This document shows, one piece after another, positions 10,337 to 57,943 of a stretch of 64,000 nucleotides of DNA. The notes beneath the pieces are model-generated. The model searched no databases, had not been told where the DNA came from, and saw only the letters and a list, made by a program, of their open reading frames with translations. Location: NCBI RefSeq assembly GCF_019453995.1, contig NZ_CP075587.1, positions 1,426,001-1,490,000 on the forward strand. Reading direction: 5' to 3'. Numbering within the stretch: the first letter of the stretch is position 1; each line of letters opens with the position of its first letter. The position numbers and the translations under genes are program-made. This stretch comes from Candidatus Rhabdochlamydia oedothoracis. Its GTDB lineage: Bacteria; Chlamydiota; Chlamydiia; Chlamydiales; Rhabdochlamydiaceae.

Positions 10337-11426
10337 TTTTCAGTTGTTGTTTAGATTCTTCTGCTACTTTTATAATAACGGTTAGTGCGAGCATATTTGC
10401 AATTAAAGAAGACCCTCCTTGGCTAAAAAAAGGAAGATTCGTGCCCTTGCTAGGTAATAATCCTGAAACTATGCCTAGGTTTAAAAAAGCTTGAAAACAA
10501 ATCAGAAAGGTAAAACTTGCCACAAGATAAAACCCACCGATTTCCTTTACCTGCAACGCAATAGCAAAACCACAAAACGCTACCATAGCATACAGAAAAA
10601 TCAGAATACTCATCCCAATAAAACCACACTCCTCTGCAAAAATGGCTGCAATATAATCACATCTTGCCTCTGGAAGATACTCTAGCTTTTGTAAACTCTC
10701 TCCGATTCCTCTGCCAAATAACCTACCAGAGCCCGCTGCAATTCTTGCTTGATAAGGTTGATGTCCCTTGCCTTTCAGATCGTATTCTGGATGTAAATAG
10801 ATCTTTAATCGATCTGATACATGAGGCATTTGTGAAGCAACCACAGCACCTATACAGCAAATAATGGCTAAAGGCAGTGCCCAGTATACCCAATTAATCT
10901 GGCTTAAGATGAACAAAACAATTAAAGCAGAGAGAATAATGGCCACTGTTCCATTATCGGGCTCAATTAAGATTAAGCCTAAAGGAATACAAATAACACC
11001 TAGCAAGCGTAAAAATTGCAGCCAATCCAAAGAGCTTTTTTGTTTAGTGACCGCATAGATATAATACAAAGGGATTACATACTTGACAAACTCTGAAGGC
11101 TGTAAAGAATTTCCAAACAGACTAATCCAACGACGAGCTCCATTGAGTTTAGGCCCAAATACCAAAACGAGAATTAAACCTATAACCCCTAAAAAAAGTA
11201 GCAATGGACTCAATGACAAAAGAGATCGATATCCCACCGACCAAATAGCAATCACGCCTATTGCGCTTATAGCTGCATAGAGAAGTTGTTTTACTAATGC
11301 ATAATAAAGGCTACGGTCTGAAAAACGATCTAGAATTTGTGCAGAGGTTGTATTAAAGACCATAACAAGGCCTAATACAAAAAGCACAGAAATAGAGCTG
11401 AGCATGATAAAGGCGTAACGATTCAT
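10326..11426 (-). CDS. ftsW: Peptidoglycan glycosyltransferase FtsW (SEDS family)
   Basis: FtsW is the SEDS polymerase of the division site and works with a class B penicillin-binding protein. The 366-aa polytopic protein has about ten membrane segments and the C-terminal signature GLLPSKGTNLPFFSQGGSS. An upstream frame begins at 11471, but that extension is encoded by the inverted end of a MITE. I chose the ATG at 11426 (MNRYAFIMLSS), which follows AAGGATCG. The MITE therefore fills the gap between nlpD and ftsW and may affect read-through transcription. Confidence 0.95.
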   Translation of the reverse strand: MNRYAFIMLSSISVLFVLGLVMVFNTTSAQILDRFSDRSLYYALVKQLLYAAISAIGVIAIWSVGYRSLLSLSPLLLFLGVIGLILVLVFGPKLNGARRWISLFGNSLQPSEFVKYVIPLYYIYAVTKQKSSLDWLQFLRLLGVICIPLGLILIEPDNGTVAIILSALIVLFILSQINWVYWALPLAIICCIGAVVASQMPHVSDRLKIYLHPEYDLKGKGHQPYQARIAAGSGRLFGRGIGESLQKLEYLPEARCDYIAAIFAEECGFIGMSILIFLYAMVAFCGFAIALQVKEIGGFYLVASFTFLICFQAFLNLGIVSGLLPSKGTNLPFFSQGGSSLIANMLALTVIIKVAEESKQQLKNDD

Positions 11427-13683: not shown

Positions 13684-14823
13684 GGCCCTTTCAACCTTGA
13701 AGTGCACAAAAAAGAACATATAAATACTTGAAAAAACATCTATTGTGCACCCGAGCATAGCATGTTTGTAGATAATCTCGTAAACACTTCTAGTGGAGTT
13801 TCGAAGTTGAGAGCCTTTCTAGGTCTGTTATTTAGTAAAGTTTCCACCCTTTCTATATCCTTAGAAGTCGTATCTAAAAAGCTTTGTGTTTTAGGAAAAT
13901 ATTGCCTAACTAGTCCGTTTGTATGCTCATTTAAGCCTCTTTCCCAAGAATGGTAGGGCGTTGCAAAGTAGAAGTCTGTCTCTAGCTCGAAACTAACCAT
14001 TTGGTGATAGGCAAATTCTTTTCCGTTGTCTGCTGTTAATGTGTGTACAAAATCTTTGATAGGTTTAAGTTGTTCAATTAACGCTTGACTTACTTCCTCT
14101 GCAGTTTTATGAGAAACTTTGGCGAGCTTAGTTAGCTTGGAAGTTCTTTCTACCATTGATACAATTACGCCTTTATGTCCTGCCCCTATGACTGTATCTA
14201 GTTCCCAGTCTCCTAAACGAGTCTTTTTTTCTACAATACAAGGCCGTTGCTTAATATCTATACGACCAGGCATGTTCCCTCTTCCAGAAGCTCCCTTTCT
14301 CTGCTTGTTATATTTTTTCCCTCGATGACGGAGCTCTCTATAAAGCTGTCCTCCCTGTCGTTTATCTTTCCAGATATGATTATAGATGGTCTCATGACTA
14401 ACATGTTCTTTACCATGTCTTTTAAGCCATCCGGATATTTGTATAGGGCTCCATTGCAACTTGATTTTTTCTTCAATACGGGTAACTATTTGAGGAGTCA
14501 TTTTTTTATTGGGCTGAGAATTTTTTCTAAGAAATGCTTTTTCTTGAGCTTGCTGATGACGGTATCCTCGTTGCCCTTTATTTCTCTTAAGTTCCCTACT
14601 AATAGTGCTATGATGAACTTTTAGAATGTTTGCTATTGAGCTAGATGTATCTCCTCTAGCTTTTAAAATATAAATCTGACATCTTTGGTCATAGGTTAGG
14701 TGATGGTAGCCTTTAGGCAAGGTCTCTCCTTGTGTTTGATTGTTAAAAATCACAATAGAGATTCTTTCATCGCCTGCCTATTCTTTTTTTAATTCTTCTG
14801 TGCACTTCAAACTTGAAAAGACT
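13684..14823 (-). mobile_element. IS30-family insertion sequence, copy A (complete)
   Basis: An element of about 1.14 kb with imperfect inverted ends: left GGCCCTTTCAACCTTGAAGT, right (reverse complement) AGTCTTTTCAAGTTTGAAGT, both followed by GCACA. It carries one intact transposase on the minus strand. Three further large copies (44401, 50840, 55399) and smaller fragments occur in the window, so this family has expanded recently. Confidence 0.9.
13740..14753 (-). CDS. IS30-family transposase (intact)
   Basis: The 337-aa protein has the IS30 layout: an N-terminal HTH (YHHLTYDQRCQIYILKARGD, then IANILKVHHSTISRELKRNKG), a middle HVSHETIYNHIWKDKRQGG region, and a DDE catalytic core with LGDWELDTVIGAGHKG (first Asp), TADNGKEFAYH (second Asp) and the HTNGLVRQYFPK glutamate region (HEHTNG-type). 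No frameshift is visible, so this copy may still be active and could supply transposase to the broken copies. Confidence 0.92.
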   Translation of the reverse strand: MIFNNQTQGETLPKGYHHLTYDQRCQIYILKARGDTSSSIANILKVHHSTISRELKRNKGQRGYRHQQAQEKAFLRKNSQPNKKMTPQIVTRIEEKIKLQWSPIQISGWLKRHGKEHVSHETIYNHIWKDKRQGGQLYRELRHRGKKYNKQRKGASGRGNMPGRIDIKQRPCIVEKKTRLGDWELDTVIGAGHKGVIVSMVERTSKLTKLAKVSHKTAEEVSQALIEQLKPIKDFVHTLTADNGKEFAYHQMVSFELETDFYFATPYHSWERGLNEHTNGLVRQYFPKTQSFLDTTSKDIERVETLLNNRPRKALNFETPLEVFTRLSTNMLCSGAQ

Positions 14824-14972
14824 TCCTTAAATATCCTAAAATCATGTCTTCTACCTTTGGAAAAAAAGGTACAAATAATCTTTTTTGTATCCTTGCTCAT
14901 TACAAAATGAAAATGCTAGATACATTACACCAATTTGACACTGAACTTCTTGCATAACCCCCTATTTTAAAG

Positions 14973-15104
14973 CTTTCATTTATAGATTCCTATCTTAACA
15001 AAAGCATTTCCAGATATATCGCTCAAACAATCATATCTCATGGACTAAATTCCTTTAAAATTATTGGTTATGCAAGCGATCTACTGTCAATGAAGCGCTG
15101 CCTG
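14973..15104 (+). pseudogene. Transposase fragment, IS1634-like
   Basis: A short piece on the plus strand reads SYLNKSISRYIAQTIISHGL in one frame and repeats, in reverse orientation, sequence at 36590-36660 that follows a DUF4277-type (IS1634-family) N-terminus. It is flanked by other IS debris. The rest of 14824-14972 is low in coding potential and I recognise nothing in it. Confidence 0.4.
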
Positions 15105-36589: not shown

Positions 36590-36844
36590 TCTAAAATTTT
36601 AAAGTATTTTAATCCATGAGATATGATTATTTGAGCGATATAGCTGGAAATGCTTTTGTTAAGATAGGAATCTATAGATGATCATAGCCAACGCTGCTAT
36701 TCCCGGACTAACTTTTCTTTGAGGGCCTGATAGCATACGATTGTCAATCCTTTCAGCAATTTTTAAGTCCTGACAAATGGCAGCCACTAAGCCATGATGG
36801 TCCATTACTGTCGTTTGAATTTCTCCTTCTGAAACCTCTACCAT
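36590..36844 (-). pseudogene. IS1634-like transposase N-terminal fragment (DUF4277-like)
   Basis: Reads TTVMDHHGLVAAICQDLKIA then RIDNRM and KVSPGIAALAMIIYRFLS. This resembles the N-terminal domain of IS1634-family transposases (MDHLGLVAG...ISPGQAVKAM). The continuation (36590-36660) is out of frame and repeats sequence at 14973-15062. The rest of the element is absent. Confidence 0.6.
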
Positions 36845-36979: not shown

Positions 36980-37019
36980 TGCCAATCGATAGGTACAGAA
37001 ATCGGAGAAAGGGGTCTAA
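36980..37019. repeat. Relic of a family-2-like MITE
   Basis: TACAGAAATCGGAGAAAGGG followed by GTCTAAT matches interior sequence of the 176-bp elements (TACAGAAATCGGAGAAAGAG) and then ends with a terminus-like GTCTAAT. It lies immediately downstream of the ptsI stop. Confidence 0.5.
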
Positions 37020-44544: not shown

Positions 44545-45438
44545 TTATTTAGTATAAGTTTCCACCCTTTCCATATCCTTGGAAGTCGTATCTAAAAAGC
44601 TTTGTGTTTTAGGAAAATATTGCCTAACTAGTCCGTTTGTATGCTCATTTAAGCCTCTTTCCCAAGAATGGTAGGGCGTTGCAAAGTAGAAGTCTGTCTC
44701 TAGCTCGAAACTAACCATTTGGTGATAGGCAAATTCTTTTCCGTTGTCTGCTGTTAATGTGTGTACAAAATCTTTGATAGGTTTAAGTTGTTCAATTAAC
44801 GCTTGACTTACTTCCTCTGCGGTTTTATGAGAAACTTTGGCGAGCTTAGTTAGCTTGGAAGTTCTTTCTACCATTGATATAATTGCGCCTTTATGTCCTG
44901 CCCCTATGACTGTATCTAGTTCCCAGTCTCCTAAACGAGTCTTTTTTTCTACAATACAAGGCCGTTGCTTAATATCTATACGACCAGGGATGTTCCCTCT
45001 TCCAGAAGTTCCCTTTCTCTGCTTGTTATATTTTTTCCCTCGATGACGGAGCTCTCTATAAAGCTGTCCTCCCTGTCGTTTATCTTTCCAGATATGATTA
45101 TAGATGGTCTCATGACTAACATGTTCTTTACCATGTCTTTTAAGCCATCCGGATATTTGTATAGGGCTTCATTGCAACTTGATTTTTTCTTCAATACTGG
45201 TAACTATTTGAGGAGTCATTTTTTTATTGGGCTGAGAATTTTTTCTAAGAAATGCTTTTTCTTGAGCTTGCTGATGACGGTATCCTCGTTGCCCTTTATT
45301 TCTCTTAAGTTCCCTACTAATAGTGCTATGATGAACTTTTAGAATGCTTGCTATTGAGCTAGATGTATCGCCTCTAGCTTTTAAAATAGACTTCTTTCGA
45401 AATTCCTCAAAGCAACTCCAAATTGTGAATTTAGGCAA
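44545..45438 (-). pseudogene. IS30 transposase, broken by MITE, stop and frameshift
   Basis: The HTH region is split by the MITE (45438-45388 is MITE-derived coding). The middle ends at KIKLQ-stop near 45169. The DDE core continues from an internal start at 44874 and terminates after ERVETYTK, short of the normal NNRPRKALNFETPLEV tail. Confidence 0.85.
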
Positions 45439-45563
45439 TTTAAAGAGATTTAAGATTATAAGCGATAGATACAGAAATCGGAGAAAGAGGTTTGGTTTGT
45501 GATTTAATCTTATCGCAGGGATTCACAATTTGGAGTTGCTTTGAGGAATTTCGAAAGAAGTCT
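45388..45563. mobile_element. MITE-like palindromic element, family 2, 176 bp
   Basis: Ends are AGACTTCTTTCGAAATTCCT and its inverse, with inverted arms of about 42 bp. The target duplication is AAT on both sides (45385-45387 and 45564-45566). Removing the element restores the intact IS30 sequence found in copies A and D. There is no coding capacity. A second copy of exactly 176 bp is at 53344-53519. Confidence 0.93.
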
Positions 45564-45655
45564 AATATAAATCTGACATCTTTGGTCATAGGTTAGGTGA
45601 TGGTAGCCTTTAGGCAAGGTCTCTCCTTGTATTTGATTGTTAAAAATCACAATAG

Positions 45656-53275: not shown

Positions 53276-53319
53276 AACTTGATTTTTTCTTCAATACTGG
53301 TAACTATTTGAGGAGTCAT
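53276..53319 (-). mobile_element. 44-bp IS30 internal fragment
   Basis: Matches the MTPQIVTSIEEKIK codons of the IS30 transposase. It is fused in frame to the GT17 fragment, but the join is accidental. Confidence 0.75.
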
Positions 53320-53343
53320 TTAGAAAAACAGGAAAAAAGTATT

Positions 53344-53519
53344 AGACTTCTTTCGAAATTCCTCAAAGCAACTCCAAATTGTGAATCCCTGCGATAAGAT
53401 TAAATCACAAACCAAACCTCTTTCTCCGATTTCTGTATCTATCGCTTATAATCTTAAATCTCTTTAAATTACCTAAATTCACAATTTGGAGTTGCTTTGA
53501 AGAATTTCGAAAGAAGTCT
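53344..53519. mobile_element. MITE-like palindromic element, family 2, second 176-bp copy
   Basis: Inverse orientation of the copy at 45388-45563, the same length, ends AGACTTCTTTCGAAATTCCT, and ATT duplicated on both sides (53341-53343, 53520-53522). Confidence 0.93.
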
Positions 53520-53524
53520 ATTAA

Positions 53525-54168
53525 AGGAGTTGTTGTAACAATCGATGCAGCCGGTTGTCACAAAATAGTAGTAGAACAGATTTGTTCCCAGGGAGGAGAT
53601 TATGTTATTGCCCTTAAAGGCAATCAAGACCACTTACATGCAGAAGCTCATAACTTTTTTGAACAAGCACAGGACGTTATACAGGAAGAAGCTAGCTGTG
53701 CTTATTGGCGGTCTGAAAAATGTACTCGAGGACGTAGTGAGATAAGAGAAGTATGGGCGACTGAGAAATTAGATTGGTTACCTCAGCGTCAGATTTAGAA
53801 GAAGCTGCATAGCTTGATATACGTAAAAGTACAGAAGAAATCGCAAGAGAGGAATAGCTGTGAAATTCGGTATTTTATTTCAAGTCTACCTGCTAATGCA
53901 GAACGTCTTGCAAAGGAAGTGCGTAATCAATGGAGCATCGAAAACAAATTGCATTGGCAACTTGATGTTAATTTCCGAGAGGATTTAAGTCGTGTTAGAA
54001 AAGGAAATGGAGCTGAAAATCTATCTATAGTTCGACGGAGCTACTTTGAATCTTTTACAAAAAGATAAGACAAGCAAGGTCAGTTTACATAAACGGCGCT
54101 TCATTGCATCATGTCGTAAAGATTATTTATTAGATCTGGTAGGTGCAAAGGAAATTCTTCATGCGTAA
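53525..54168 (+). pseudogene. ISAs1-family transposase remnant
   Basis: Starts VVVTIDAAGCHKIVVEQICS, continues through GDYVIALKGNQDHLHAEA, then, after a stop and frameshifts near 53797, RYFISSLPANAERLAKEVRN and IENKLHWQLDVNFREDLSRV. It ends ...LVGAKEILHA at 54168. These are the middle and C-terminal DDE parts of ISAs1 transposases. The N-terminus is missing, cut by the MITE side. Confidence 0.85.
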
Positions 54169-55398: not shown

Positions 55399-56540
55399 GG
55401 CCCTTTCAACATCGAAGTGCACAAAAAAGAACATATAAATACTTGAAAAAACATCTATTGTGCACCCGAGCATAGCATGTTTGTAGATAATCTCCTAAAC
55501 ACTTCTAGTGGAGTCTCGAGGTTGAGAACCTTGTCTAGGTCTGTTATTTAGTAAAGTTTCCACCCTTTCCATATCCTTGGAAGTCGTATCTAAAAAGCTT
55601 TGTGTTTTAGGAAAATATTGCCTAACTAGTCCGTTTGTATGCTCATTTAAGCCTCTTTCCCAAGAATGGTAGGGCGTTGCAAAGTAGAAGTCTGTCTCTA
55701 GCTCGAAACTAACCATTTGGTGATAGGCAAATTCTTTTCCATTGTCTGCTGTTAATGTGTGTACAAAATCTTTGATAGGTTTAAGTTGTTCAATTAACGC
55801 TTGACTTACTTCCTCTGCAGTTTTATGAGAAACTTTGGCGAGCTTAGTTAGCTTGGAAGTTCTTTCTACCATTGATACTATTACGCCTTTATGTCCTGCC
55901 CCTATGACTGTATCTAGTTCCCAGTCTCCTAAACGAGTCTTTTTTTCTACAATACAAGGCCGTTGCTTAATATCTATACGACCAGGGATGTTCCCTCTTC
56001 CAGAAGTTCCCTTTCTCTGCTTGTTATATTTTTTCCCTCGATGACGGAGCTCTCTATAAAGCTGTCCTCCCTGTCGTTTATCTTTCCAGATATGATTATA
56101 GATGGTCTCATGACTAACATGTTCTTTACCATGTCTTTTAAGCCATCCGGATATTTGTATAGGGCTCCATTGCAACTTGATTTTTTCTTCAATACTGGTA
56201 ACTATTTGAGGAGTCATTTTTTTATTGGGCTGAGAATTTTTTCTAAGAAATGCTTTTTCTTGAGCTTGCTGATGACGGTATCCTCGTTGCCCTTTATTTC
56301 TCTTAAGTTCCCTACTAATAGTGCTATGATGAACTTTTAGAATGGTTGCTATTGAGCTAGATGTATCGCCTCTAGCTTTTAAAATATAAATCTGACATCT
56401 TTGGTCATACGTTAGGTGATGGTAGCCTTTAGTCAAGGTCTCTTGTTGTGTTTGATTGTTAAAAATCACAATAGAGATTCTTTCATCGCCTGCCTATTCT
56501 TTTTTTTAATTCTTCTGTGCACTTCAAACTTGAAAAGACT
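55399..56540 (-). mobile_element. IS30-family insertion sequence, copy D
   Basis: Same ends as copy A. The right end is followed directly by an IS5-like (type 2) terminus. Confidence 0.9.
55495..56469 (-). CDS. IS30-family transposase with altered C-terminus
   Basis: 324 aa, almost identical to copy A through ERVETLLNNRPR, then frameshifted by an insertion near 55530 to end QGSQPRDSTRSV, replacing KALNFETPLEVFTRL. The HTH and the DDE Asp residues remain. Because the C-terminal tail is changed, activity is uncertain. Confidence 0.85.
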   Translation of the reverse strand: MIFNNQTQQETLTKGYHHLTYDQRCQIYILKARGDTSSSIATILKVHHSTISRELKRNKGQRGYRHQQAQEKAFLRKNSQPNKKMTPQIVTSIEEKIKLQWSPIQISGWLKRHGKEHVSHETIYNHIWKDKRQGGQLYRELRHRGKKYNKQRKGTSGRGNIPGRIDIKQRPCIVEKKTRLGDWELDTVIGAGHKGVIVSMVERTSKLTKLAKVSHKTAEEVSQALIEQLKPIKDFVHTLTADNGKEFAYHQMVSFELETDFYFATPYHSWERGLNEHTNGLVRQYFPKTQSFLDTTSKDMERVETLLNNRPRQGSQPRDSTRSV

Positions 56541-57378: not shown

Positions 57379-57943
57379 TACGACTATTTGTCTTTTGATC
57401 GAATGCTTTTTCTTTTTTCCGGAGTAAAATTGCGATTTTTTATCCTCTTTTTATCTTTGACTTTTTTTTGGGACGCTCTATAGGTGTTTCTGATGCATCT
57501 ATAAGAATTACTTCGTATTCCATGTCACTCTTAAGAAGAGCTTTTTTAAAAAGTGGTTACCAGTGGCGTAAAAAAAACTTTTATCTGTATCACTCTTCAA
57601 AAGAGCTTTACGTCCTGGTAGCTCAAAATCTGGATGCTTAATTACTGTGTCTTCCAACCATTTCACTGTTTTATAAGCATTACTTTCACTGACTGAGTAA
57701 CTTTGGCTTATGTGAAAGTAAGTCCTATATTCTCTAATGTACTCTAAAGTCATAAGCAGCATGTTTTCTATGCTTATCTTCTTTTTTCTTCTCTTCTTTG
57801 TTTTTCTATCTTTAACTTCTTGCTCTAGAATACCTATCATCTTATCAAACGTCTTTTGCTTAACACCGGTTAGACGACGAAACTTTTCTTCATCCAATAG
57901 AGGATACAATATACTCTCAAAAATTTAATTTCGAAAGAAGTCT
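57379..57943 (-). mobile_element. IS5-family insertion sequence (type 3), truncated; end shared with family-2 MITEs
   Basis: The intact terminus at 57943 reads, inward, AGACTTCTTTCGAAATT, identical over 17 bp to the ends of the 176-bp MITEs. The transposase follows on the minus strand. The other end is lost in a junction with IS30 and IS5 type-2 debris. Confidence 0.75.
57400..57909 (-). pseudogene. IS5-family (type 3) transposase, broken
   Basis: The N-terminal frame (57909-57508) has EEKFRRLTGVKQKTFDKMIG and YFHISQSYSVSESNAYKTVK, an HTH_Tnp_4-like domain. A foreign insert of about 26 bp from the type-2 IS (57546-57571) disrupts it. Past that, another frame gives VILIDASETPIERPKK and SGKKKKHSIKRQ, the DDE start. 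The rest is absent. Confidence 0.75.

Follow-up and report, generated by a model that had tools for sequence, protein, structure and literature searches.

What is the 176-bp palindrome that sits inside an IS30 transposase gene of Candidatus Rhabdochlamydia oedothoracis, and from what was it built? The window analysed here, a 64,000-nucleotide stretch of a 1,879,229-bp contig (the assembly's second contig is 38,901 bp), carries two full copies, which an earlier note had described as a coding-free, palindromic, non-autonomous element with clean 3-bp target duplications. Both positions and the common length of 176 bp were borne out, with copy 1 at 45388..45563 on the plus strand, inside the IS30 gene, and copy 2 in the opposite orientation at 53344..53519 on the minus strand. 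The copies agree at 174/176 positions, differing only at element positions 19 and 49. Their inverted arms, previously put at about 42 bp, measure 43 bp; in copy 1, the left arm (45388..45430, plus strand) and the right arm (45521..45563, plus strand) pair at 43/43 positions, after which the identity ends abruptly, while 42/43 pair in copy 2. Such a palindrome is beyond chance: the predicted RNA fold of the element is very stable (-87.3 kcal/mol, z-score of -13.4), and 0/200 shuffled sequences folded equally well. As argued below, we consider it highly probable that this is a type I MITE derived from an insertion sequence of the IS5 family (IS-A below), with the right end of that IS at both sides.

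Copy 1 is a genuine insertion with a 3-bp duplication. It is flanked by AAT at 45385..45387 and again at 45564..45566, and two sister copies of the IS30 gene in the window, at 14655..14684 and 56371..56400 (both plus strand, the latter within ORF 55495-56469, which the IS30 model matches above cut-off), run through the same site uninterrupted and contain AAT once. With two such empty sites, excising the element on paper does restore the sister sequence, and real transposition of a non-autonomous element, as proposed from the letters alone, stands for this copy.

The same cannot be said of copy 2, whose ATT/ATT had been read as a second target duplication. Its flanks come from two different genes: on the left are 22 bp of an IS110 transposase gene (53322..53343), on the right a fragment of an ISAs1 transposase gene (53520..53760), both plus strand. 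Since the two triplets belong to different genes, they are no proof of target duplication, and we dropped that reading. Seven loci of the ISAs1 gene were tried; one is copy 2 itself (L170), one has no junction motif (L174), and the five others (L171, L172, L173, L177 and L179) run left into gene sequence that is absent at copy 2, where the right flank continues the gene. On the other side, the first 21 bp of the IS110 flank occur at 21 exact places in the genome, copy 2's own included, and the three others that we examined (L182-L184) are uninterrupted onward. Matching triplets are also easily had here: the left-flank triplets of sister elements are strongly biased (ATT 9, AAT 7, ACT 3, CTT 1; n=20), and unrelated flanks therefore agree in about 35% of cases. 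Copy 2 is most likely the product of recombination between two MITE insertions, or of a rearrangement with its endpoint at the element; a MITE could also have hit a pre-existing IS110/ISAs1 junction to the base, which would be a coincidence. Directly beside copy 2, very short fragments of IS30 (46 bp) and IS110 (22 bp) lie next to each other at 53276-53343, as a patchwork that rearrangements among dead IS copies have left. That 46-bp IS30 fragment is all that the 400-bp flanks of the two copies have in common; its distance from the element is 166 bp at copy 1 and 22 bp at copy 2. Because the flanks otherwise differ, the copies are not parts of one longer segmental duplication, a source of the pair that we accordingly rejected.

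The description of the element as coding-free turned out to be wrong. Its interior and right arm come from the 3′ end of an IS5-type transposase gene: element positions 47-157 (45434..45544, plus strand) translate as GNLKRFKIISDRYRNRRKRFGL, a stop codon, FNLIAGIHNLELL and a second stop, and the corresponding stretch in G157, the nearest relative, as GSLKRFKIISDRYRNRRKRFGLRFNLIAGIHNLELP followed by a stop. Seventeen of the 37 codons differ between the two, 14 of them silently (one being the stop itself, TGA versus TAA) and only 3 not, so that 34/37 encode the same residue or stop. It is because these differences are mostly silent that we take the interior for the end of a transposase gene. At the DNA level, element positions 46-176 and the 3′ end of the IS in G157 are identical at 112/131 positions. 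The remnant carries one added stop codon relative to the gene of the relative.

The right arm is thus accounted for as the right end of IS-A, together with the last codons and the stop of the transposase gene. More telling is the left arm, which, inverted, matches right ends: its own at 43/43 positions, that of G157 at 39/43, those of two related IS loci at 36/43 (L041) and 35/43 (L065), and that of the sister element IS-C at 30/43. Compared with native left ends without gaps, it agrees over the 17-bp terminal repeat only, and gapped alignment gives 30/49 for IS-A, 28/49 for IS-C, 29/49 for L065 and 27/47 for L041. In four left-versus-right comparisons, the native repeats likewise extend for about 16-17 bp before unlike sequence begins. 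By sequence comparison, then, positions 1-43 repeat the last 43 bp in inverted form, and the native left end is absent. The element reads right end, gene end, right end, since its left arm matches right ends throughout and native left ends for 17 bp only, and the duplicate meets the gene immediately before the codons for G-N-L-K-R-F-K. The earlier note was right in seeing a real mini-element; its palindrome, however, is made of two right ends of one IS and not of its two native ends.

In other respects the element has the features by which MITEs are known. It is 176 bp long (<500 bp) and has no functional transposase, its 37-codon remnant being interrupted by an internal stop; it shares terminal inverted repeats with an IS, the 17-bp repeat being found at left and right ends of the IS-A type; and a flanking target duplication is present at copy 1 (AAT, two empty sites), that of copy 2 being unproven.

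The presumed parent itself is represented in the window by a 5′ remnant at 57464..57943 on the minus strand, with the left end AGACTTCTTTCGAAATTAAATTTTTGAG and N-terminal transposase fragments; no complete IS-A was found in this genome, where only 3′ fragments and left-end pieces came to light. The family assignment was made on the sister IS-C, whose DNA is 67.9% identical to the 3′ part of the element, in place of a full IS-A. The two halves of the IS-C transposase match the IS5-family model NF033581 at positions 2-135 and 141-285 of 285 (E-values of 2.5e-22 and 1.4e-35; each half alone is below the full-length cut-off) and Pfam PF13613, PF13359 and PF01609 above cut-off, which places the parent in the IS5 family by way of IS-C. 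The second half scores 123 bits with the IS5 model versus 28 bits with the IS982 model (IS982 cut-off, 130), and on this transposase comparison we rejected an IS982-derived, MITECca01-type element. A 3-bp duplication is compatible with several IS5 subgroups. Related IS, full or internally deleted, have ends of the AGA..TCTT/AAGA..TCT type and matching 3-bp flanks (L014, L016, L023, L041, L043, L049 and L065).

How widespread is the element? The search of the genome and of related Chlamydiae that the earlier note called for was run, and it found two full copies here and no close full-length match elsewhere. In this genome, the 176-bp query gave 25 matches: the two full copies, two fragments (element positions 71-176 and 109-176), five that are arms or the palindrome on the opposite strand, and 16 matches of 70-91%; of those whose sequence was examined, most represent the 3′ end of a related IS. 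For the truncated copies, at 1175103 and 328374, IS-A is a conceivable source in place of the MITE. At two full copies and two fragments in this genome, the family is small. The genome has 43 exact matches to the end TAGANYTCTTTCRAAAYY, and the only inward-facing pairs within 400 bp are the two copies. An unusual match lies elsewhere in the window, at 36984-37015 (L019), where a 32-bp match to the element's interior stops just before GGGGTCT and then AAT, which looks as though sequence from inside the element had been used as an end.

Among 232 Chlamydiota genomes (137 at least 90% complete; up to 3 candidates scored per genome), the query matches 30, this one included, and no full-length match above 68% identity was found outside this genome; among the 6 genomes of the genus, full-length copies were seen in this one only. 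The matches listed from other genomes are right-end or 3′-end pieces, with the exception of one in a congener (G046) that covers positions 1-171 at 68%. This same congener is the only other of the 232 genomes to show the two-right-ends pattern with CTTTCGAAA-type ends. Its structure, 170 bp by the ends chosen, is closer to IS-C (85.0%) than to IS-A (67.7%), its arms agree at 30/39 positions, and its flanks, ATT and CAT, are unmatched. It represents an old case of separate origin, or else two right ends that remained next to each other. The genome_contigs collection yielded the pattern in 2 stretches, one of them on a Chlamydiales MAG contig that is as long as the G046 contig (20,111 bp); the other, in a Bacteriovoracaceae sequence (L072), was taken as chance, being without the long palindrome.

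As to how a second right end came to replace the left one, we favor template switching during replication, although its chances against the other routes are about even. A nascent strand that had read from the right end inward (...AATTGTGAAT) would pair with a similar stretch of the gene and copy back out through the right end; such a fold-back or strand switch at the junction would yield the structure observed, with a few bases lost there. In G157, which at 85.5% identity stands in for the true parent in this comparison, AAATGAGAAT is the gene sequence immediately before the junction, and the inverted right end at that place is AATTGTGAAT, the two being alike at 8/10 positions with GAAT identical.

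The strongest competitor gives the same right-end/right-end anatomy and differs in the origin alone: the right ends of neighboring inverted IS copies would have been joined by a deletion and then moved as a unit, with no template switching. Patchworks of truncated IS are common in this genome, and the congener's structure, with arms alike at only 30/39 and flanks unmatched, is what two separate IS copies would give. Against this route, the arms of copy 1 are identical for 43 bp and then part abruptly, where separate IS copies should match further unless cut exactly there; we regard it as the less probable origin, though far from a negligible one. Considerably weaker is the usual way of making a MITE, by an internal deletion of the IS that keeps the native left and right ends. 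Mini-elements of this kind do exist, namely a 141-bp element in G060 (L039) and the local 152-bp element described below, and their ends differ outside the terminal repeat. In our element they do not: the native left end AGACTTCTTTCGAAATTAAATTTTTGAG occurs elsewhere in the genome, and the left arm matches it for 17 bp only but the right end for 43 bp, so that an ordinary left/right derivative was rejected by the end comparison and is, in our judgment, improbable. It is more improbable still that the hairpin was kept for a function as a terminator, small RNA or regulator, as its fold of -87.3 kcal/mol might invite one to think, given that the sole terminator-like site in 45300-45650 lies outside the element (by a scan that allows loops of 3-8 only and is hence blind to the long stem), that no promoter-like site was found there, that Rfam gave no match in the element, and that both full copies (n=2) adjoin or interrupt broken transposase genes; a structured RNA of known family was rejected, with no Rfam match at five loci.

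Whether born by template switching or otherwise, the element probably owes its movement to an IS5-group transposase acting in trans, to judge from its ends. Pairing of the two right ends by such an enzyme is possible in principle because each carries the 17-bp terminal repeat, and the unit would then enter AAT/ATT-like targets. Against the best explanation as a whole we count that a proven target duplication is found at one insertion of the element only, and that the second IS-C frame has its weak match to the IS982 model. Who might supply the enzyme today? Nine IS-C loci (L110-L118) were examined among 35 matches listed, 30 of them with loci, and 8/9 have broken or truncated frames. In the ninth, L115, both frames are open, the first being six residues shorter than its sisters and the second having one substitution near its end. 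L115 is the only candidate helper among these nine. In several loci (L110-L115, L117 and L065), the IS5-type transposase is spread over two reading frames, the break being at a run of A; the first frame has the same ending (..QGRRK..) here and in a genome that belongs to another family, a likeness suggestive of programmed frameshifting.

Two further mini-elements bear on how particular the IS5-group ends are. The first, a 152-bp MITE, has the left and right ends of a related IS (AGATTTCTTGCATAACC and AGATCTCTTGCATAACC) and is perhaps the other family of the earlier note. It occurs on both chromosome and plasmid and is commoner than the 176-bp MITE, with 17 copies that have both ends (AGATTTCTTGCATAAC...GGTTATGCAAGAGATCT) among 30 loci of 45 matches; in the window it is seen at 14934-15082 (85%) and, as a fragment, at 36590-36681, and on the plasmid at C2:26918-27070. 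Part of this second contig aligns with the 19,669-bp plasmid of Ca. Rhabdochlamydia porcellionis at 84.1% identity, with 67% of the query covered; according to PMC9723776, plasmids of the genus measure 20-39 kb and the transposase genes of Ca. R. oedothoracis number 415.

The second is a 183-bp chimera, in which 31 bp of the IS-A left end precede the 152-bp MITE of another IS. Its three full copies, at 10589-10771 (L141), 771806-771988 (L142) and 1333677-1333859 (L140) of the chromosomal contig (G000:C1), are flanked by AAT, ATT and ACT pairs; because each has its own matching 3-bp flanks, we conclude that the chimera moved with hybrid ends. Taking all copies with both ends recognized (20, from 30 loci among 45 matches; 3 chimeras and 17 of the 152-bp element), 16/20 have matching 3-bp flanks, which has a probability of about 5e-5 if unrelated flanks match at 0.35. 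The four unmatched copies pair AAT with ATT, as inter-copy recombination would give.

The pairings found here are right with right (176-bp element), the left end of one IS with the outer end of another's MITE (183-bp) and left with right (152-bp). Tentatively, and with the doubt leaning against us, we propose that IS5-group ends act in these chlamydiae as interchangeable modules, any near-cognate pairing of which can be moved, and that right-end/right-end elements arise repeatedly by fold-back at nearly the same place of the transposase gene, in IS-A here and in an IS-C-like IS of the congener. Together with the chimera, the 176-bp element suggests that IS5-group transposases tolerate odd end pairs; if true, such tolerance would go some way to account for the spread of mini-elements at a time when intact IS copies are decaying. 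The 176-bp element, for its part, offers a readable case of the birth of a bacterial MITE, with the parent's frame, the duplicated end and the junction still visible.

How does this compare with known systems? Near-perfect palindromes made of terminal repeats are familiar from eukaryotic MITEs of the Made1 type, which belong to Tc1/mariner in animals and are not known to retain transposase codons. For bacteria, no MITE described as having two right ends was seen among the open-access papers listed, which is weak evidence of absence. The main text of PMC9723776, on the IS-rich genome of Ca. R. oedothoracis, contains none of the words "mite", "miniature" and "non-autonomous", and at the 7 listed occurrences of "mite" in PMC9997750 the animal is meant. 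Compared with prokaryotic type I MITEs as characterized in section 4 of PMC10969869, our element is likewise <500 bp and non-autonomous, has IS-derived terminal repeats, a strong stem-loop and direct repeats (at one copy), and shares IS sequence beyond its ends; in contrast, its arms of 43 bp exceed the typical terminal repeats of about 4-30 bp, and both its ends are the right end of the IS. Another intracellular arthropod symbiont harbors a MITE of about 240 bp in 169 copies that has been attributed to IS982 and keeps sequence beside the left repeat (PMC9769881, PMC9997750). By its description, that MITE resembles ours in being IS-derived, in its host's lifestyle and in disrupting other mobile elements among its sites, whereas ours is of IS5 type and has 2 full copies. 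Finally, TIME mosaics of the Tn3 family, with 5-bp duplications and experimentally shown mobility (PMC4133298), also combine non-autonomous ends into larger mobile mosaics, as in the 183-bp chimera, but differ from the IS5-type ends and 3-bp duplications seen here. Set beside these systems, the element belongs to a known class, in an unusual architecture and at low copy number.
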